The position numbers and the translations under genes were made by a program. The notes under the pieces are model-generated. The model made no database searches and was not told the origin of the DNA. It saw only the letters and a list, made by a program, of their open reading frames with translations. Of a DNA stretch of 41,311 nt, positions 2,030 through 35,422 are shown in pieces. The DNA lies in NCBI GenBank assembly GCA_002894665.1, contig NCRB01000031.1, forward strand, positions 1-41,311, in the 5' to 3' direction. Within the stretch, counting starts at the first letter, position 1. Each line of letters starts with the position of its first letter. Source of the DNA: Salinivenus iranica. GTDB taxonomy: Bacteria; Bacteroidota; Rhodothermia; Rhodothermales; Salinibacteraceae.

Positions 2030-3667
2030 TCATACGGCGAGTGTCCGTTTTGACTCAACCTCCTGGTGGCAACCCACACACAGGCTCACCAGATTTTCCA
2101 GGCTGTTGGCCTTCTCTGGGTTCTCATATCCTGCGTATGGTCTGTGGTGGTGGACCTCGGCTATCTCCCTGTTCAGGTCCTTGCCGCACTTCTGGCAAGT
2201 CCACTCATCCCTGTTCAGGGCTTTCCATCGTTGATCCATCCAACCTGTTCTTTCTTCCTGGAAAGCCAACCAAGTGGCCTCCTCTGGAAGTATGTCCTCT
2301 GTTGATCTATCACCATCCAGGTACGGGTGCGGTTTGTCCGTTCGCGGCTCCATGTATCGCGTGGACATATCCGCTATGTAGGCCAACTCTTTCCCCTCAA
2401 CCTTCAGGGGATCAGTATGCTCCAGGATATTCTCCACAAGGTACTTCCGTGAGCATTCGTGCTTCCCCGCCAGCCAGTGGGTCAACCTGTGCCAAGCGAA
2501 GGACTGCACTTCTGGTAGTACCTTTGCGGCGTCTTCCGCATACTTGTAGTAGTTCGCCCATCCTCTGAGGACGTAGTTAAGAGCCATGACTTTTGCCCTT
2601 GAGGACACTTGATTGTCCCCATCAGTCACTGCCTTGATCTTGTCCCTCACGTCCTTTTTGGCCTCCTTGGGTACGTGCTTCCTCACTCCCCCTGTCTCTT
2701 TATCTCGTTCCAGATAGAAGCCGAGGAAGTGGAAGCCGTCATTTGCGTGGACAATCTCCGTCTTTTTCTCGGAGAGGGTGAGGTGGAGTTCTTCTTCCAC
2801 GAAGTCCTCCAGCCTCCCGAGCATCTTCTCCGCACGGTCCTTTGTCCCACTTGTTTGGAGCAGGAAGTCATCGGCGTATCTGGCGTAATGCCAAGCACCT
2901 TTACCGTGCGCTCTGCGCAGGTCATGTTCTCTGCGTGTTAGCTCTGTCCACTTCTTGACCCATTGGTCCAGTTCATTCAGATATATGTTCGCCAATACTG
3001 GGGAGACGATTCCTCCCTGTGGCGTCCCTATTGCAGACTTATGGAACTCTCCTTCTTCCATGACACCTGCCTTCAGGAATTTCCAGACCAAGGACAGGAG
3101 TTTCTCGTCCGTGATCCGGTTCTTCATGATCTGGATTAGGCGTCGGTGATCCACGTTGTCAAAGAACCCTTTGATGTCCGCATCAATCACCCACATCATG
3201 TTCGACTGCACCACCTTCCCCTGCACAAGTCTCACAGCGTCCAGGGTGCAGCGATTGGGTCTAAACCCAAAGGAGCGGTCACTAAAGACCGATTCATAGA
3301 TCGATTCGAGGACCATCCTGAGCGCCTCCTGCACAATCCTATCACGAATGGTCGGGATTCCCAGAGGGCGTTCCCTGCCATCCCCTTTCGGAATATACGT
3401 TCGGCGCACAGGCTCAGGGGTATAGGACTCCGATTTTAGACTTTGCCGGAGGTCATTCAGGTTCTCACCCAGATTCTCCTCAAAGTCTTCCATCTCTTGT
3501 CCATCTACCCCTGGTGTGTTTGCACCTGAGTTGGACTTCACTTCGCCGTATGCCCGACGCAGGAAGTCTTCGTCATAAACCAGGTTGTACACGTCGTTGG
3601 TACGGAACTCTGGGTCCTTAGCCCAGGTCGCCAACTTCGATTGCATTTCGTCTACATCCATCGGCAT
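2030..3667 (-). CDS. ltrA: group II intron reverse transcriptase/maturase with HNH endonuclease
   Basis: A 545-residue intron-encoded protein that helps splice the intron RNA and copies it into DNA at new sites. Domains in order: RT fingers/palm with the catalytic YADDF at about 264-268, the maturase (X/thumb) region containing GWANYYKYA, and a C-terminal HNH endonuclease with CQKCGKD, EVHHHRP and NLVSLCVGCH, where two Cys pairs would bind zinc. All expected domains are present and the frame is unbroken, so the element may still be mobile. An HNH domain argues against class IIC, whose proteins lack it, and fits a chloroplast-like or bacterial B-type intron; the exact class is inference. The start is ATG at 3667; a second Met two codons later is possible. 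Confidence 0.95.
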   Translation of the reverse strand: MPMDVDEMQSKLATWAKDPEFRTNDVYNLVYDEDFLRRAYGEVKSNSGANTPGVDGQEMEDFEENLGENLNDLRQSLKSESYTPEPVRRTYIPKGDGRERPLGIPTIRDRIVQEALRMVLESIYESVFSDRSFGFRPNRCTLDAVRLVQGKVVQSNMMWVIDADIKGFFDNVDHRRLIQIMKNRITDEKLLSLVWKFLKAGVMEEGEFHKSAIGTPQGGIVSPVLANIYLNELDQWVKKWTELTRREHDLRRAHGKGAWHYARYADDFLLQTSGTKDRAEKMLGRLEDFVEEELHLTLSEKKTEIVHANDGFHFLGFYLERDKETGGVRKHVPKEAKKDVRDKIKAVTDGDNQVSSRAKVMALNYVLRGWANYYKYAEDAAKVLPEVQSFAWHRLTHWLAGKHECSRKYLVENILEHTDPLKVEGKELAYIADMSTRYMEPRTDKPHPYLDGDRSTEDILPEEATWLAFQEERTGWMDQRWKALNRDEWTCQKCGKDLNREIAEVHHHRPYAGYENPEKANSLENLVSLCVGCHQEVESKRTLAV

Positions 3668-4436: not shown

Positions 4437-4982
4437 TCAGAACGGAAGCTCGTCGTCGGGCTCAAACGTTTCCTCATCGCCGGAGCCGCCGCCGGACGCG
4501 CCGCCGCCGGATTGGCCGCCGCCGGATTGGCCGCCGCCGGACGGGCCGCCCCCGGACTGCGAGGCGGGCTGCTGCTGGGGCGGGCGCTGGTCGAAGTTGT
4601 CGCTCTCCTGCGCCTGGTTGAAGTCGCCATCCATGCCGCCCCCCTGCCGATTGCTGTCGAGGAAGGTCATGTCGCGCGCCTTCACCTCCGTGGTGTACCG
4701 CGTGTTGCCGTCGCGGTCCTCCCAGGAGCGGGTCTGCAGCGATCCCTCAAAGTAGACCTGCGACCCCTTCGAGAGGTACTCGTTGCAGACCTCGCCGAGC
4801 CGGCCCCAGGCGACCACGTTGTGCCACTCGGTGTCCTGGACCTCCTCCCCGTCCCGGTTGGTGTAGGTGTTGGTGGTCGCCAGCCGCATGTTGCAGACGG
4901 CCGTGCCGCTTCCGGTGTACCGAAGTTCGGGGTCCTGCCCCAAATTGCCAATGAGAATAACCTTGTTGACTCCACGTGCCAT
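4437..4982 (-). CDS. ssb: single-stranded DNA-binding protein
   Basis: Coats single-stranded DNA in replication, repair and recombination, and recruits partners through its acidic tip. The product has 181 residues from [15 protein letters not shown], the canonical SSB start; the frame extends upstream to 5033 but those codons do not resemble SSB. The OB fold covers roughly residues 1-110 (motifs [19 protein letters not shown], and a [10 protein letters not shown]-type strand). A Gly/Ser/Gln-rich linker of repeated SGGGQ units follows, then the acidic tail ending DDELPF, which matches the conserved C-terminal tip. Downstream in its own orientation lies the group II intron. No SD sequence is obvious, as is common in Bacteroidota. 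Confidence 0.97.
4486..4560 (-). repeat. 15-bp tandem repeat in the ssb linker
   Basis: Five consecutive 15-bp units, two of them (4501-4515 and 4516-4530) identical, encode repeated SGGGQ-like pentapeptides in the SSB linker. Slippage here would change linker length in whole pentapeptides without touching the OB fold or the tip. Confidence 0.8.
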
Positions 4983-12147: not shown

Positions 12148-12981
12148 ATGGACGGACACGACCTGATCGACGGAAAAACCGGCATCATCTTCGGCCCCTT
12201 GAATGAGGACAGCATTGCCTGGTCCATCGCCCAGGCCTGTCACCGCGAGGGCGCCGAGTTTGTGCTCTCCAACGCCCCGGTGGCCCGCCGCCTCGGCTCC
12301 CTCGACGAGCTGGCCGACGAGACGGACAGCGACATCATCTGGGCGGACGCCACCGACGATGAGGACCTTGAGGAGCTGTTTGAGGAGGTGAAGGACGCGT
12401 ACGGGAAAATTGACTTCATCGTCCACTCCATCGGGATGGGCGTGAATGTCCGGAAGGACGTGCCGTACGAGGACCTCAACTACAACTGGTACGAGCAGAC
12501 GCTCGACGTGTCGGCCGTGAGCCTGCACCGCATCGTCAAGCACGCCCTCGACACCGAGGCGATCGACGACGGCGGATCCATCCTCGCCATGAGCTACATC
12601 GGCGCGCAGCGCATCTTTTCGAAGTACTCGGAGATGGGCGACGCGAAGGCGCTCCTCGAAAGCATCGTCCGTTCGTTCGGCTACCGGCTCGGCAAGCGCG
12701 ACATCCGCATCAACGCCATCTCGCAGAGCCCCACCAAAACGACCGCCGGCTCGGGCATCGAGGGCTTCGACGCCATGTACGAGTTTGCCGAGCGCGTGTC
12801 GCCCCTCGGCAATGCCAGCGCCGACAGCTGCGCCGACTATGCCACGACGCTCCTCAGCGACTACGCGCGGATGGTCACCATGCAGACGCTCTACCACGAC
12901 GGCGGCTTCTCCAGCATGGGCATCTCGGATCAGATCGTGGAGGCGATGGAGGATTCGTTTGCGGACGAGGATGAAAGTTGA
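12148..12981 (+). CDS. fabI: enoyl-[acyl-carrier-protein] reductase (NADH)
   Basis: Last reductive step of each fatty-acid elongation cycle. The 277-residue protein belongs to the short-chain dehydrogenase superfamily. The nucleotide-binding N-terminus (IIFGPLNEDSIAWSIAQA) is FabI type. The catalytic pair is Tyr160-x6-Lys167 in SKYSEMGDAKALLE. The following 'RINAISQSPTKTTAGSG' is the Bacteroidota variant of the substrate loop. The C-terminal tail is acidic (SFADEDES). The stop codon TGA falls inside the first word of the heptamer array that fills the next gap. Confidence 0.95.
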   Translation: MDGHDLIDGKTGIIFGPLNEDSIAWSIAQACHREGAEFVLSNAPVARRLGSLDELADETDSDIIWADATDDEDLEELFEEVKDAYGKIDFIVHSIGMGVNVRKDVPYEDLNYNWYEQTLDVSAVSLHRIVKHALDTEAIDDGGSILAMSYIGAQRIFSKYSEMGDAKALLESIVRSFGYRLGKRDIRINAISQSPTKTTAGSGIEGFDAMYEFAERVSPLGNASADSCADYATTLLSDYARMVTMQTLYHDGGFSSMGISDQIVEAMEDSFADEDES

Positions 12982-13217
12982 AGGTGGGAAAGTGGAAGGT
13001 GAGGAAATTTAAGATTGGAAAATGGGTCTGCTAATCTGAATGTCAAGTCAGAAAAAAGTGGTTCGGGGAGGGTATTATGGTCATGATTTGGTCGAAACGA
13101 AGAAATCATGATTCGGGCAGATCTCCAACCTTGAATCTCTGACTGAAACTTTCCATCTGATAATATTCAATCTTTTAATCTTCAACCTTCCAGCCTTAAA
13201 ACCTTTGACCTTAAACA
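12977..13217. repeat. inverted heptamer-type array, fabI-HAD gap
   Basis: An AT-richer gap in GC-rich surroundings. On the left (12977-13024) purine-rich words of alternating 7 and 8 bases follow one another (TTGAAGG, TGGGAAAG, TGGAAGG, TGAGGAAA, TTTAAGA). On the right (about 13124-13217) the same word type appears in reverse complement (read on the other strand: TTTAAGG, TCAAAGG, TTTTAAGG, CTGGAAGG, TTGAAGA). A separate 9-bp perfect inverted repeat, TCATGATTT/AAATCATGA (13081-13089, 13103-13111), sits in the middle. The array begins at the fabI stop codon and ends about 10 bases before the next start. Confidence 0.7.
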
Positions 13218-13227
13218 CGAACGAACA

Positions 13228-13965
13228 GTGACCAAACTCTTCGTCACCGACATCGACGGGTGCCTGGCCGAGCCGTACACGGCGTTCGACCTGGAGGGGA
13301 TGGCGACGCTGGGGCAGTACGCCGCCGCGGACGACCCGGCAAGCCCCCCGCTCTCCATCTGCTCGGGGCGCTCGTACCCGTACGTCGAGGCCCTCACCCA
13401 GGCGCTCGGCCTCACGGTGCCGGTGCTGTTCGAGAGCGGCGGCGGGCGGTTCGATCCCGTTTCGGCCCAGACCACCTGGTCTCCGGCGCTGACGGACGCG
13501 ATCGAGGCCGAGCTGGAGGAGGTCCGGCACTGGTTTGTCACCGACTGTGTGCCGGGCACGAGCCTGTCGCTCGACCATGCGAAGCGGACCCAGGCGGGGG
13601 TGGTGTCCCCGAATCCGGACGAGATCCTTGATCTTCGTCCGCGCACCGAGCAGTTTGTAGAAGAGCGTGTCCCGGATCTCCGCGTGTTTTCGACCGCCGT
13701 GTCGATTGACGTGGTGCCGCCGGGGATTACCAAGCGGACCGGGCTGGAATGGCTCACGGACCACCTGGAGGTGCCCATGGACGACGTGGCCTACATTGGC
13801 GATGCCGAGTCGGACCTGGAGGCCCTCGACGCGGTGGGCCACTCGTTTGCGCCGGCCAACGCCGACCCCGAGGTGCGCCGGCGCGTCGACCACGTCACCG
13901 AGGGGAGGGTCCTCGATGGGACCCTCGAGGCCTATCGGACGTGTCGAGCCCTCCATGATGCATAA
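13228..13965 (+). CDS. HAD-superfamily phosphatase (Cof/IIB type)
   Basis: A 245-residue hydrolase acting on an unknown, probably sugar, phosphate. Motif I is 'VTDIDGC' with Asp8 as nucleophile and Asp10 as general acid. Motif II is 'SICSGRS'. Lys in 'ITKRTGLEWL' fits motif III, and 'YIGDAESDLEAL' is motif IV. The cap between motifs II and III resembles the IIB cap of Cof/sucrose-phosphatase/mannosyl-3-phosphoglycerate-phosphatase proteins. The start is GTG at 13228, directly before MTKLFVTDIDG. It follows the heptamer array after fabI; whether it is co-transcribed is unclear. Confidence 0.85.
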   Translation: MTKLFVTDIDGCLAEPYTAFDLEGMATLGQYAAADDPASPPLSICSGRSYPYVEALTQALGLTVPVLFESGGGRFDPVSAQTTWSPALTDAIEAELEEVRHWFVTDCVPGTSLSLDHAKRTQAGVVSPNPDEILDLRPRTEQFVEERVPDLRVFSTAVSIDVVPPGITKRTGLEWLTDHLEVPMDDVAYIGDAESDLEALDAVGHSFAPANADPEVRRRVDHVTEGRVLDGTLEAYRTCRALHDA

Positions 13966-32964: not shown

Positions 32965-33057
32965 GCGTAGAATAGGAAATCGAGGATAGAGAATCGACAC
33001 GCGTTTGTTTCCCCACACAATCCTCGATTCTCGTCCTTAGTACTTCGTCAAGTTAAT
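32965..33057. repeat. inverted heptamer array, sdhA-sdhB gap
   Basis: On the forward strand consecutive 7-base words TAGGAAA, TCGAGGA, TAGAGAA, TCGACAC lie at about 32971-33000. After a spacer, the same word type in reverse complement (TCCTCGA, TTCTCGT, CCTTAGT) occupies about 33023-33043. The architecture matches the gaps after fabI and before sdhA, but the words differ. Confidence 0.65.
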
Positions 33058-33101
33058 TCTTTGGGGGCCGAATCGAACTCAAAATCCCGAACATCCAGCA
33101 C

Positions 33102-33290: not shown

Positions 33291-34858
33291 GCGCAGGCGG
33301 CGATGGCCTCGGCGTAGTCGACCATGTAGCCAATCTCCACGGCGTCCATCAGGTCGGTGTTGAAGCGCTTGCCCTTGTCGTCCACCACCACATTCTGAGC
33401 GCGGGCCCGGTACTCTTCGATGCGGTCGAGGGCCGTGGAGAGGGTATTTTCGTTGCGGAAGACGCTGACGTTCTCCATCATCGTCTCCTGCAGATCGGTG
33501 CGCACGTTCACGGTGGGCTCGCCCTCGTCGCGCGTGTTCGAGAGGAGGTTGTCGAGCATGTCCCGCGTGTCCTTCTCCGGATTCTCGGGCAGCGGCGTGT
33601 AGTCCTTTCCTTGCTTGACCTCCTTGGCCATCTGCATGCCGGCCCGGCGGCCAAACACCACCAGCTCCAGCAGGGCATTGGTGCCCAGCCGGTTGGCGCC
33701 GTGGATGCTCACGCAGGCGCACTCGCCCACCGCGTAGAGGCCCGGCACGGTGGTGCCGCGCTCGCCGATCTCCACGTGCCCCTTCTCATCGGTGGGAATG
33801 CCGCCCATGGCGTAGTGGCAGGTGGGGACCACCGGAATGGGCTCCTCCTTCGGATTGACGCCCATGTAGGTACGCGAGAACTCCGAAATCTCCGGCAGTT
33901 TCTCGTCGAGGATCTTCTCGTCGAGGTGGGTAAGGTCGAGGTGGACGTAGTTTTTGCCCTGCACGCCGCGCCCCTCCCGAATTTCCTTGTAGATGCACTG
34001 GCTTACCATGTCGCGCGGGGCGAGGTCCTTCACCGTGGGCGCGTAGCGTTCCATGAAGCGTTCGCCCTCGCTGTTGCGCAGGATGCCGCCCTCTCCGCGG
34101 GCGCCCTCCGTGATGAGGATGCCGAGGCGGTAGAGCCCGGTCGGGTGGAACTGCACGAACTCCATGTCCTCCAGCGGGATGCCGTTGCGCAGCATGATGC
34201 CCATGCCGTCGCCCGTGCTGGCGTGTGCGTTGGAGGTGGTCTCGAAGGCGCGGCCGTACCCGCCGGTGGCGAAGCAGACCTGCTTGGCGTGGAACGTGTG
34301 GATTTCGCCGGTCAGGATCTCGTAGGCCACCACGCCGGCGCACTCCCCGTCCTGCATGATGAGGTCGAGCACCTGAAACTCGTCGTAGAACCGGACGCCC
34401 TGCTTCGTGCACTGGTCGTAGAGCGTGTGCAGGATGGTGTGCCCGGTGCGGTCGGCGGCGTGGCAGGAGCGCTTGACGGGCGCTTCGCCGAAGTTGCGCG
34501 TGTGGCCTCCGAAGCGCCGCTGCGAGATCTTGCCCTCCTCGTTGCGGCTAAAGGGCACGCCGTAGTGCTCCAGCTCCACGATGGTCCGCGGGGCGTCCTT
34601 GCAGAGCGCCTCGATGGCGTCCTGGTCGCCCACATAGTCGCTGCCTTTGACGGTGTCGAAGGCGTGCCAGAGCCAGTGGTCCTCTTCCTCGTTGCCGAGG
34701 GCCGCGGCGATGCCGCCCTGTGCGGCGCCGGTGTGCGAGCGGAGGGGGTGCAGCTTGGAAACGACGCCCACGTCGGCCCCGCCTTCACGGGCGTACAGCG
34801 CGGCCATCAGCCCCGAACCGCCCGCTCCAACAACGACGACATCGTGCTCAAAAGTCAT
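33230..34858 (-). CDS. sdhA: succinate dehydrogenase flavoprotein subunit, C-terminally shortened
   Basis: Oxidises succinate to fumarate on covalent FAD. The 542-residue product has the FAD motif VVVGAGGSG, the flavin-linked His42 in '[13 protein letters not shown]', '[26 protein letters not shown]', '[14 protein letters not shown]', '[12 protein letters not shown]' and '[24 protein letters not shown]'. All recognised catalytic regions are present. Homologues continue past the conserved RTESRG for about 45-50 residues (the AHxRxDxPxRDDENWLKHT region). Here the frame reads RTETR, then residues encoded by palindromic repeat DNA, then stop. I found no continuation of the motif in any downstream frame. 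The start is MTFEHDVVV; the frame upstream is open through a heptamer array to a TTG at 34945. Confidence 0.93.
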
Positions 34859-34926
34859 GGTGCGTATTGCGTGTTGCGTATGGCGTATTGCGTAGTGCGT
34901 ATTGACGTATTGCGCATCCGGATCAT
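34855..34926 (-). CDS. possible 23-codon leader ORF overlapping the sdhA start
   Basis: On the reverse strand ATG (34926-34924) follows GGAGG (34933-34929) closely. Its frame ([19 protein letters not shown]...) ends in a TGA that overlaps the sdhA ATG as ATGA. A second Met three codons in has a more usual spacing (11 bases) from GGAGG. Because the DNA repeats every 7 bases, the peptide repeats every 7 residues. It may serve translational coupling of sdhA, or be an accident of the repeat. No homology is expected or seen. Confidence 0.35.
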
Positions 34927-34960
34927 TTCCTCCGTAGATACGCAAGACGAAATACGCAAT
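34859..34960. repeat. inverted heptamer array filling the sdhD-sdhA gap
   Basis: The forward strand shows eight consecutive units of TGCGTAT or close variants (34861-34918; one unit has an extra base), a 20-base spacer containing TCCTCC, then ATACGCA-AGACGAA-ATACGCA (34939-34959), the reverse complement of the unit. The element occupies the gap exactly, from the base next to the sdhA ATG to the base next to the sdhD stop. As RNA it can fold into an imperfect hairpin whose loop carries GGAGG. Confidence 0.85.
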
Positions 34961-35422
34961 TTATCCCCACCCGGCCGTAATCACCGAGTACATTCCGATG
35001 ATGAGCAGGCCGAGGGCCACGGTCCACGAGAGCGACCGGGCGATGAGGCGCCCCATGGGGTCGCGGATGTAGTCGGTCATCACGTTGTTCAGGCCGTAGA
35101 AGCCGTGGTGGAGGGCGACGATGAGAAACAGGATGTTAAAGCCCTTCCACAGCACGGCGTAGACCGGGTCGGCCAGGCGCTGCATCACCACCTGGTAGGG
35201 CGTCGCCTCCGCGTCGGGGCCGAAGCGGGCCCGTACCCCTTCCTTGGCCTCCTCCGGGTAGTCCGGCATGGCCCCCTGCTCGGTCACCACCTCGTGGGTC
35301 ACCGACGCGGCCTGGTGGTCGTAGTGCTGCACCCAAAAGTGGGTGATCAGCATAAAGATGAGGAAGGTGCCTGTGATGCGGTGCAGAAACCAGTTGAGCG
35401 CGTTCGACGTGGAGGCAGCCAT
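34961..35422 (-). CDS. sdhD: succinate dehydrogenase membrane anchor subunit
   Basis: A 153-residue inner-membrane protein with three predicted helices: residues ~10-32 (WFLHRITGTFLIFMLITHFW), ~88-110 (VLWKGFNILFLIVALHHGFY) and ~125-148 (SLSWTVALGLLIIGMYSVI). 'HRITG' near the N-terminus and 'ALHHGFYGLNNVMTDY' in helix 2 are the SdhD-like quinone/heme region. With SdhC it forms the b-type anchor for SdhAB. The loop between helices 1 and 2 is long and acidic (EEAKEGVRARFGPDAEA). It is 51 bases downstream of sdhC. Confidence 0.9.
   Translation of the reverse strand: MAASTSNALNWFLHRITGTFLIFMLITHFWVQHYDHQAASVTHEVVTEQGAMPDYPEEAKEGVRARFGPDAEATPYQVVMQRLADPVYAVLWKGFNILFLIVALHHGFYGLNNVMTDYIRDPMGRLIARSLSWTVALGLLIIGMYSVITAGWG

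Follow-up and report, generated by a model that had tools for sequence, protein, structure and literature searches.

Convergent arrays of seven- and eight-base words behind fabI and in other intergenic gaps of a Salinibacteraceae genome

The gap between fabI and a HAD-type phosphatase gene of Salinivenus iranica holds two facing arrays of 7- and 8-base words. It is not a lone feature; the array belongs to a genome-wide class that has many word families. With moderate confidence, we read it as a convergent heptad/octad array pair that grew in place by word-sized slippage at a tolerated 3' gap, one of a genome-wide population. Arrays of this population gain and lose DNA by 7 nt or small multiples of it, are placed just behind stop codons while promoter-only (divergent) gaps are avoided, and can switch the word family of a given gap between near relatives. 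Slippage alone does not explain the origin of the words or their fixed polarity.

The window, that is, the whole stretch of 41,311 nucleotides that was analysed, has a GC content of 66.0%, against 38.8% for positions 12973-13217; the AT-rich character of the 246-nt fabI-to-HAD gap had also been noted in the sequence-only reading. The left arm contains 1 C and 23 G in 58 nt, and the right arm 27 C and 6 G in 97 nt. The left arm, on its C-poor strand, reads TTGAAGG-TGGGAAAG-TGGAAGG-TGAGGAAA-TTTAAGA-TTGGAAAA, alternately 7 and 8 bases, and words of this kind also make up the right arm on the opposite strand. The first word makes the fabI stop codon, just as the sequence-only reading had it: the TGA at 12979-12981 lies inside TTGAAGG at 12978-12984. 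Features are collected in Table 1.

Table 1. Features in and around the two arrays of the window (positions of the window)
Feature	Position	Strand	Evidence and remarks
fabI (enoyl-ACP reductase)	12148..12981	+	ORF; Pfam adh_short_C2 'Enoyl-(Acyl carrier protein) reductase', 1.2e-65
Left arm of 7- and 8-base words poor in C (TTGAAGG, TGGAAGG, TTTAAGA, TTGGAAAA)	12973..13030	+	Autocorrelation z 4.9, 0/2000 shuffles; tandem period 15
Non-repetitive core separating the arms	13031..13120	.	Periodicity absent
Central hairpin, arms 13081-13094 and 13098-13111	13081..13111	+	Inverted repeat, 86% over 14 nt; paired in the minimum free energy fold
Right arm, like words read on minus, the plus strand being G-poor	13121..13217	-	Autocorrelation z 6.8, 0/2000 shuffles; top score of the periodicity scan across the ~673 kb sampled
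HAD-type phosphatase gene, downstream	13228..13965	+	ORF; Pfam Hydrolase_3, 1.1e-18
Second array, TTGCGTA words	34857..34960	.	G-arm 34857-34917, C-arm about 34937-34960; adjoins an ORF stop at 34961 and precedes sdhA; conserved in G001

Both arms repeat at 7/8, 15, 23 and 30 bases in autocorrelation. Mean self-match was calculated over lags 7, 8, 15, 22, 23, 30, 37 and 38, a set that extends the proposed periods of 7, 7.5 and 8 to their multiples and was chosen after the autocorrelation had been viewed. It was 0.466 in the left arm (0.322 shuffled) and 0.418 in the right arm (0.292 shuffled), and none of 2000 dinucleotide shuffles reached the score of either arm. The proposed alternation of 7- and 8-base words is thereby borne out, and the autocorrelation is higher than in shuffled sequence; a value no higher than in composition-matched random sequence would have refuted the sequence-only reading. 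The periodicity signal is absent from the core (0.248 against 0.266 in 2000 shuffles). Aligned with the reverse complement of the right arm, the left arm gave a local score of 16 against 10.1, and 7 of 500 shuffles reached it. The arms are thus inverted relatives, as had been claimed, yet they are not word-for-word mirror images. Folding of the transcript, which had been suggested as a check, predicts a nested hairpin for 12970-13225 (z −2.63, reached by 3 of 200 shuffles), with z only −1.64 for the strict gap. Rfam covariance models gave no matches up to E 1 for 12800-13400. A further claim, that a similar array abuts the sdhD stop, held for the array itself (Table 1) but not for the gene name, since the adjoining ORF is without a Pfam hit and its identity as sdhD is unconfirmed.

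The fabI 3' flank was compared in 12 genomes, own included, with the word families assigned by eye; automatic delimiting of the gap worked in 8 of the 12. The TTGAAGG array was seen in the source genome (G000) and is absent or replaced in the relatives. G001, G002 and G006 carry a GTGCGTGA/CACGCATC array and G003 and G012 a CGTTCCAA-type array; small hairpins or little else occupy the gap in G004, G005, G008, G009 and G010, and nothing clear was seen in G018. Between G000 and G001 the gap was replaced outright by the different word family, with flanks 98% identical on both sides and with the final codons of fabI changed along with it. Strong simple hairpins occur in two of the five array-free relatives tested (G008, z −3.3; G009, z −3.7; the others being G010, −0.9; G005, −1.2; and G018, 1.5), and the array of G003 has a strict-gap fold z of 0.1. 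In a search of 41 genomes for orthologues of the array, only its own genome, as one assembly, matched over the whole query. The relatives offered no clean empty site for the fabI-gap array, and inspection of empty slots in G003 did not find an obvious ancestral core.

The wider population was sampled in 673,650 bases, made up of the window, 232 kb more of G000 and 400 kb of the congener G003. Genes (601) were called with a simple custom dicodon caller and left unannotated, and 461 gaps of 40-1500 nt were tested for local self-similarity. Segments scoring at least 12 numbered 35 at lag 15 (3.0 in shuffles) and 18 at lag 7/8 (1.0 in shuffles), against 2-11 at control lags (0.7-2.3 in shuffles). 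The word families found include TTGAAGG/TTGGAAGG, TTGCGTA/TTTCGTA, GTGATGC, GAGTCAT, GGGAGCAC, TTTTGGA and others. Perfect 15-mers of the TTGAAGG family, each an 8+7 pair of words, occur elsewhere in G000 and confirm the 7/8 alternation in a cleaner case; the TTGCGTA arrays, unlike these, are mostly strict 7. The periodicity-only scan and the listing of arms at score 11 are leads only, as true arrays are mixed there with coding and GC-rich false positives. G000 is a draft of 133 contigs, but like arrays are also present in G003, on a sampled contig of 3.55 Mb, and the class is therefore not accounted for by errors of assembly.

A census was made with the TTGCGTA-family 12-mer GCGTATTKCGTA, which is present in all 13 genomes of the genus, while its reversed control occurs in one genome, once. 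All its places in G000, G001 and G003 gave 58 arrays. Among the 54 with both neighbouring genes called, 46 lie between co-directional, 7 between convergent and 1 between divergent genes; the 461 background gaps divide into 337, 44 and 80 (Fisher p 0.0012; 1.0e-5 for gaps of at least 100 nt). In the co-directional arrays the median distance from the upstream stop was 14.5 nt, against 48.5 nt to the next start (Wilcoxon p 0.014), and half of them (23/46) begin within 15 nt of the stop. Pfam hits place arrays between carA and carB, between genes that we take to be rmlB and rmlA, between a response regulator and the next gene, and before sdhA. Both arms were recognised in 35 arrays, the G-arm only in 7 and the C-arm only in 16. 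All 35 two-armed arrays have the G-strand arm first and the C-strand arm second, so that the G-strands face each other; the reverse order was not seen in any of them. A word-agnostic search for partner arms returned 8 convergent and 1 divergent pair with 18 unpartnered arms in our own samples, and 23, 3 and 74, respectively, in 52 stretches from other groups and phyla.

Twelve loci shared by G000 and G001, with flanks 89-98% (mostly 93-98%) identical, show how the arrays change. Four are unchanged or nearly so (L066/L102, L067/L094, L072/L099 and the window array at 34.9 kb/L095), and two differ by one 7-nt word (L061/L093 and L070/L079). Large differences in arm length or words were found at L071/L075, L058/L073 and L014/L074, the first two with longer expansions in word steps. 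At L064/L077 words were added, with a longer expansion, and the 24-nt core is inverted between flanks of unchanged order, an orientation confirmed in two separate comparisons; recombination between the arms, or processing of a cruciform there, may have turned it. At L062/L096 the word family changed inside a retained older outer arm, and the twelfth locus is the fabI gap with its outright replacement. Word insertions and deletions in this comparison fall within arms or at outer ends, not at inner ends.

In contig C15 of G001, about 23.5 kb separate L075 and L076 (at about 37.7 and 60.9 kb), two copies, in direct orientation, of a single array and its flank. At the locus of L071, the two flanking genes are adjacent in G000, G003 and G011, without the 23.5 kb of G001; this segment may be an island that either inserted at an array or was duplicated together with one.

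Cores were compared in 595 pairs and are alike only among orthologous loci; z exceeded 4 within one genome just twice, each time on a 9-nt match. Whole elements are therefore not copied about: words are common to loci and cores are locus-specific. Copying of one arm from the other, or base-by-base selection for pairing, should make the two arms of an element each other's best partners. At the 15 loci where both arms carry a seed, which we rely on here, pairing within elements is no better than between elements (P=0.956). Over all 35 two-armed arrays the arms pair worse than random (P 0.9998), but this set is biased by selection, because a seed in one arm was enough for a locus to enter it.

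If the arrays arose by slippage, slipped-strand synthesis would lengthen the arms where they stand, in steps the size of a word, and the arms would be tolerated where neither a promoter nor coding sequence is harmed. Where arrays are co-transcribed, the RNA may then fold into a loose hairpin between the cistrons that affects the mRNA modestly at most. Slippage does not, however, predict that the G-strands face each other in every two-armed array, that one word family occupies both arms, or that several phyla share identical 7-8-7 words. The whole swap of the fabI gap between G000 and G001 also speaks against stepwise growth.

How far might the arrays instead be selected as RNA hairpins? REP, BIME and REPIN elements are often found downstream of genes, and a similar 3'-end or intercistronic hairpin could protect the upstream cistron against 3'-to-5' decay and make for differential expression. 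We regard this as a tentative second choice, clearly behind slippage. The frequent abutment of stop codons, the location between partner genes (carA-carB, rmlB-rmlA) and before sdhA, the nested hairpin predicted for the fabI gap and the strong simple hairpins of G008 and G009 are all consistent with it. However, arms within an element are no more complementary than arms across elements (the biased set of 35 shows the reverse), 23 of the 58 arrays have one recognised arm only, and the strict-gap folds of the fabI gap in G000 and of the G003 array are weak. A REP/BIME-like role is possible, and arm pairing lends it no support.

A bidirectional transcription terminator would fit the location in 3' gaps and the avoidance of divergent ones, and the fabI gap does have a predicted hairpin. 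We nevertheless think it improbable. No U-tract was seen at the fabI-gap array, the sequence after its right arm lacking a T run, and gaps of this kind are of the operon type: carA-carB, rmlB-rmlA, a response regulator with its next gene, and sdhA with the gene before it are usually co-transcribed. A general strong terminator role of the arrays is thus unlikely, co-transcription being judged here from the gene pairs. Loading of Rho, with a C-rich arm last in both directions, was considered as a separate role; single arms in the transcript sense are C in 11 cases and G in 6, which is not a decisive excess, and TACGCAA words are without YC steps.

Equally doubtful, in our judgement, is growth by end-addition, in which a break or hairpin tip would have G-strand words attached to both of its 3' ends before these are joined. 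Such a process would yield convergent polarity, one family on both arms, an independent word order and a locus-specific junction. Several observations match it: the uniform polarity, the mutual independence of arms, the unrelated cores, the new family inside the older outer arm at L062/L096, the core inverted between relatives at L064/L077, and the exchange of the fabI gap, where the flanks are 98% identical and the final fabI codons differ. Against it, the word indels observed fall inside arms or at their outer rather than inner ends, the 23 arrays with one recognised arm do not fit, and a candidate enzyme was not found: RVT_1 was matched in 4 and Y1 transposase in 6 of 13 genomes, neither of them in the array-rich G001, G010 and G012 (G012 being 83% complete). 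Reverse transcriptase and Y1 transposase were rejected as generators, since their distribution does not track array number. A broader form of the idea, which we hold to be a long shot, is that a pan-bacterial process at DNA ends left the arrays behind as scars, through a telomere-like addition of G-strand words from a small shared lexicon that leaves convergent arms around a chance junction. If true, it would explain together the polarity, the independent arms, the unrelated cores and the identical 7-8-7 words in about six phyla.

A mobile MITE- or REPIN-like element copied by a transposase is the least credible reading and very hard to sustain: copies are dispersed and Y1 transposases are present in the genus, but the terminal inverted repeats of a MITE enclose a shared core and a REP/REPIN is a conserved tagged palindrome with a RAYT-type Y1 transposase, whereas here cores differ between loci, arm length varies freely, and Y1_Tnp is missing from more than half of the genomes, the array-rich ones above included. 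A 19-mer was also used to look for a dispersed element whose inner arm end is fixed; most genomes gave few matches, and such an element was unsupported.

The class of heptameric repeats is itself already known. STRR heptanucleotide repeats of heterocystous cyanobacteria were reportedly described by Mazel in 1990. These repeats resemble ours as tandem heptanucleotide families within one genome, while in the sources consulted the inverted, stop-abutting layout seen here is not reported for them. The arrays share with intergenic heptameric tandem repeats a unit of about 7 nt and their occurrence between genes at many loci; the unit is not a constant 7 nt, in that the TTGAAGG family alternates 8+7 (though TTGCGTA is mostly strict 7), which makes it a variant rather than a plain member of the STRR/heptamer SSR class. 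Two Xanthomonas genomes have 186 and 183 GGGAATC repeats, nearer to the upstream gene (mean 28 nt), few in divergent gaps, and with 70 and 75 convergent pairs; the same paper also mentions Calothrix heptanucleotides (Rehm et al. 2015, PMC4692102). Our arrays are like these GGGAATC and GGGGA(T/C)T repeats of Xanthomonas and Nostoc, as there described, in being intergenic, in the 7-nt unit, in the bias to the upstream gene, in being scarce in divergent gaps and in convergent pairs, and the facing G-rich strands of all 35 two-armed TTGCGTA arrays agree with that polarity. They differ from that one G4-forming family in having many families per genome, in the 7/8 (15-nt) register of the TTGAAGG family and in the replacement of families in one gap; G3 tracts for a G-quadruplex are not seen in the consensus words TTGAAGG and TTGCGTA, which are without GGG. 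TAACTGA repeats of Beggiatoaceae, Cyanobacteria and Bacteroidetes are likewise intergenic heptamers common to distant phyla, but they are reported to be direct, only one being inverted, and mostly upstream of start codons; a proposal cited there is that 7 nt may be the length with which a polymerase interacts (MacGregor 2015, PMC4679880). REP, BIME and REPIN elements are also extragenic and palindromic; they are of a fixed tagged sequence, unlike these variable word arrays with locus-specific cores (PMC3733652, PMC3116915). In the open-licence literature, we found neither a description of arrays in Salinibacter nor a joint description of the 7/8 register, many families per genome, gap-by-gap replacement and words shared across phyla.

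Sharing of words across phyla is well shown for the TTGAAGG family only. In a species-representative collection the exact 7-8-7 22-mer TTGAAGGTTKGAAGGTTGAAGG was found in 56 stretches from about 34 genomes, as counted by record title, and about six phyla, labelled as Chloroflexi (Anaerolineales, Roseiflexus), Acidobacteria, the cyanobacteria Moorena and Coleofasciculus, Phycisphaerales, Verrucomicrobia/Kiritimatiellae and Bacteroidetes. The chance expectation is about 0.06, by arithmetic that assumes uniform composition and has no reversed-pattern control there. Several of these stretches lie, by eye, directly behind stop codons with the C-strand arm downstream. By comparison the TTGCGTA 19-mer is scarce outside the order, with matches in 6 of 296 genomes of the phylum, one of them outside the order. 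The TTGCGTA 12-mer occurs in 8 of 15 genomes of other groups that had been picked for TTGAAGG words, clearly over the reversed control only in Pedobacter (10 vs 1); the reversed pattern is a poor control in array-rich other phyla, as it is itself array-like there.

Repeats of seven bases have long been on record in bacteria, for decades by now, and no cause is generally accepted. This genus offers a study system with many families per genome, near-identical relatives whose gaps were switched, grown by words or inverted in the core, an apparently strict polarity rule, and words identical to those of distant phyla. If polarity and lexicon share one mechanism, a cultivable strain could reveal it directly on resequencing. 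Otherwise the arrays are still fast-changing segments amid core genes, as between carA and carB and next to sdhA.

Other repeats were observed in passing. In the window, an AT-rich gap at about 32985-33075 has inverted word-like runs (AGAATAGGAAATCGAGGATAGAGAATCGA / TCCTCGATTCTC) and is possibly a degenerate array, and 4478-4589 is a GC-rich 15-nt minisatellite, GCCGCCGCCGGACGG, of about five copies. Nested beside or inside the arrays studied are an array of other words (GGATGCCT type) at 330-510 of L073 and an ACCGCGG-type word array in the core of L061. In the carA-carB gap of G000 (L014, 2466-2670), a TTGAAGG G-arm faces a TTGCGTA C-arm as a mixed pair. On the minus strand of the window, at 2030-3667, an ORF of 545 aa has a reverse transcriptase domain (RVT_1 at 2714-3394) and is presumably a group II intron protein.
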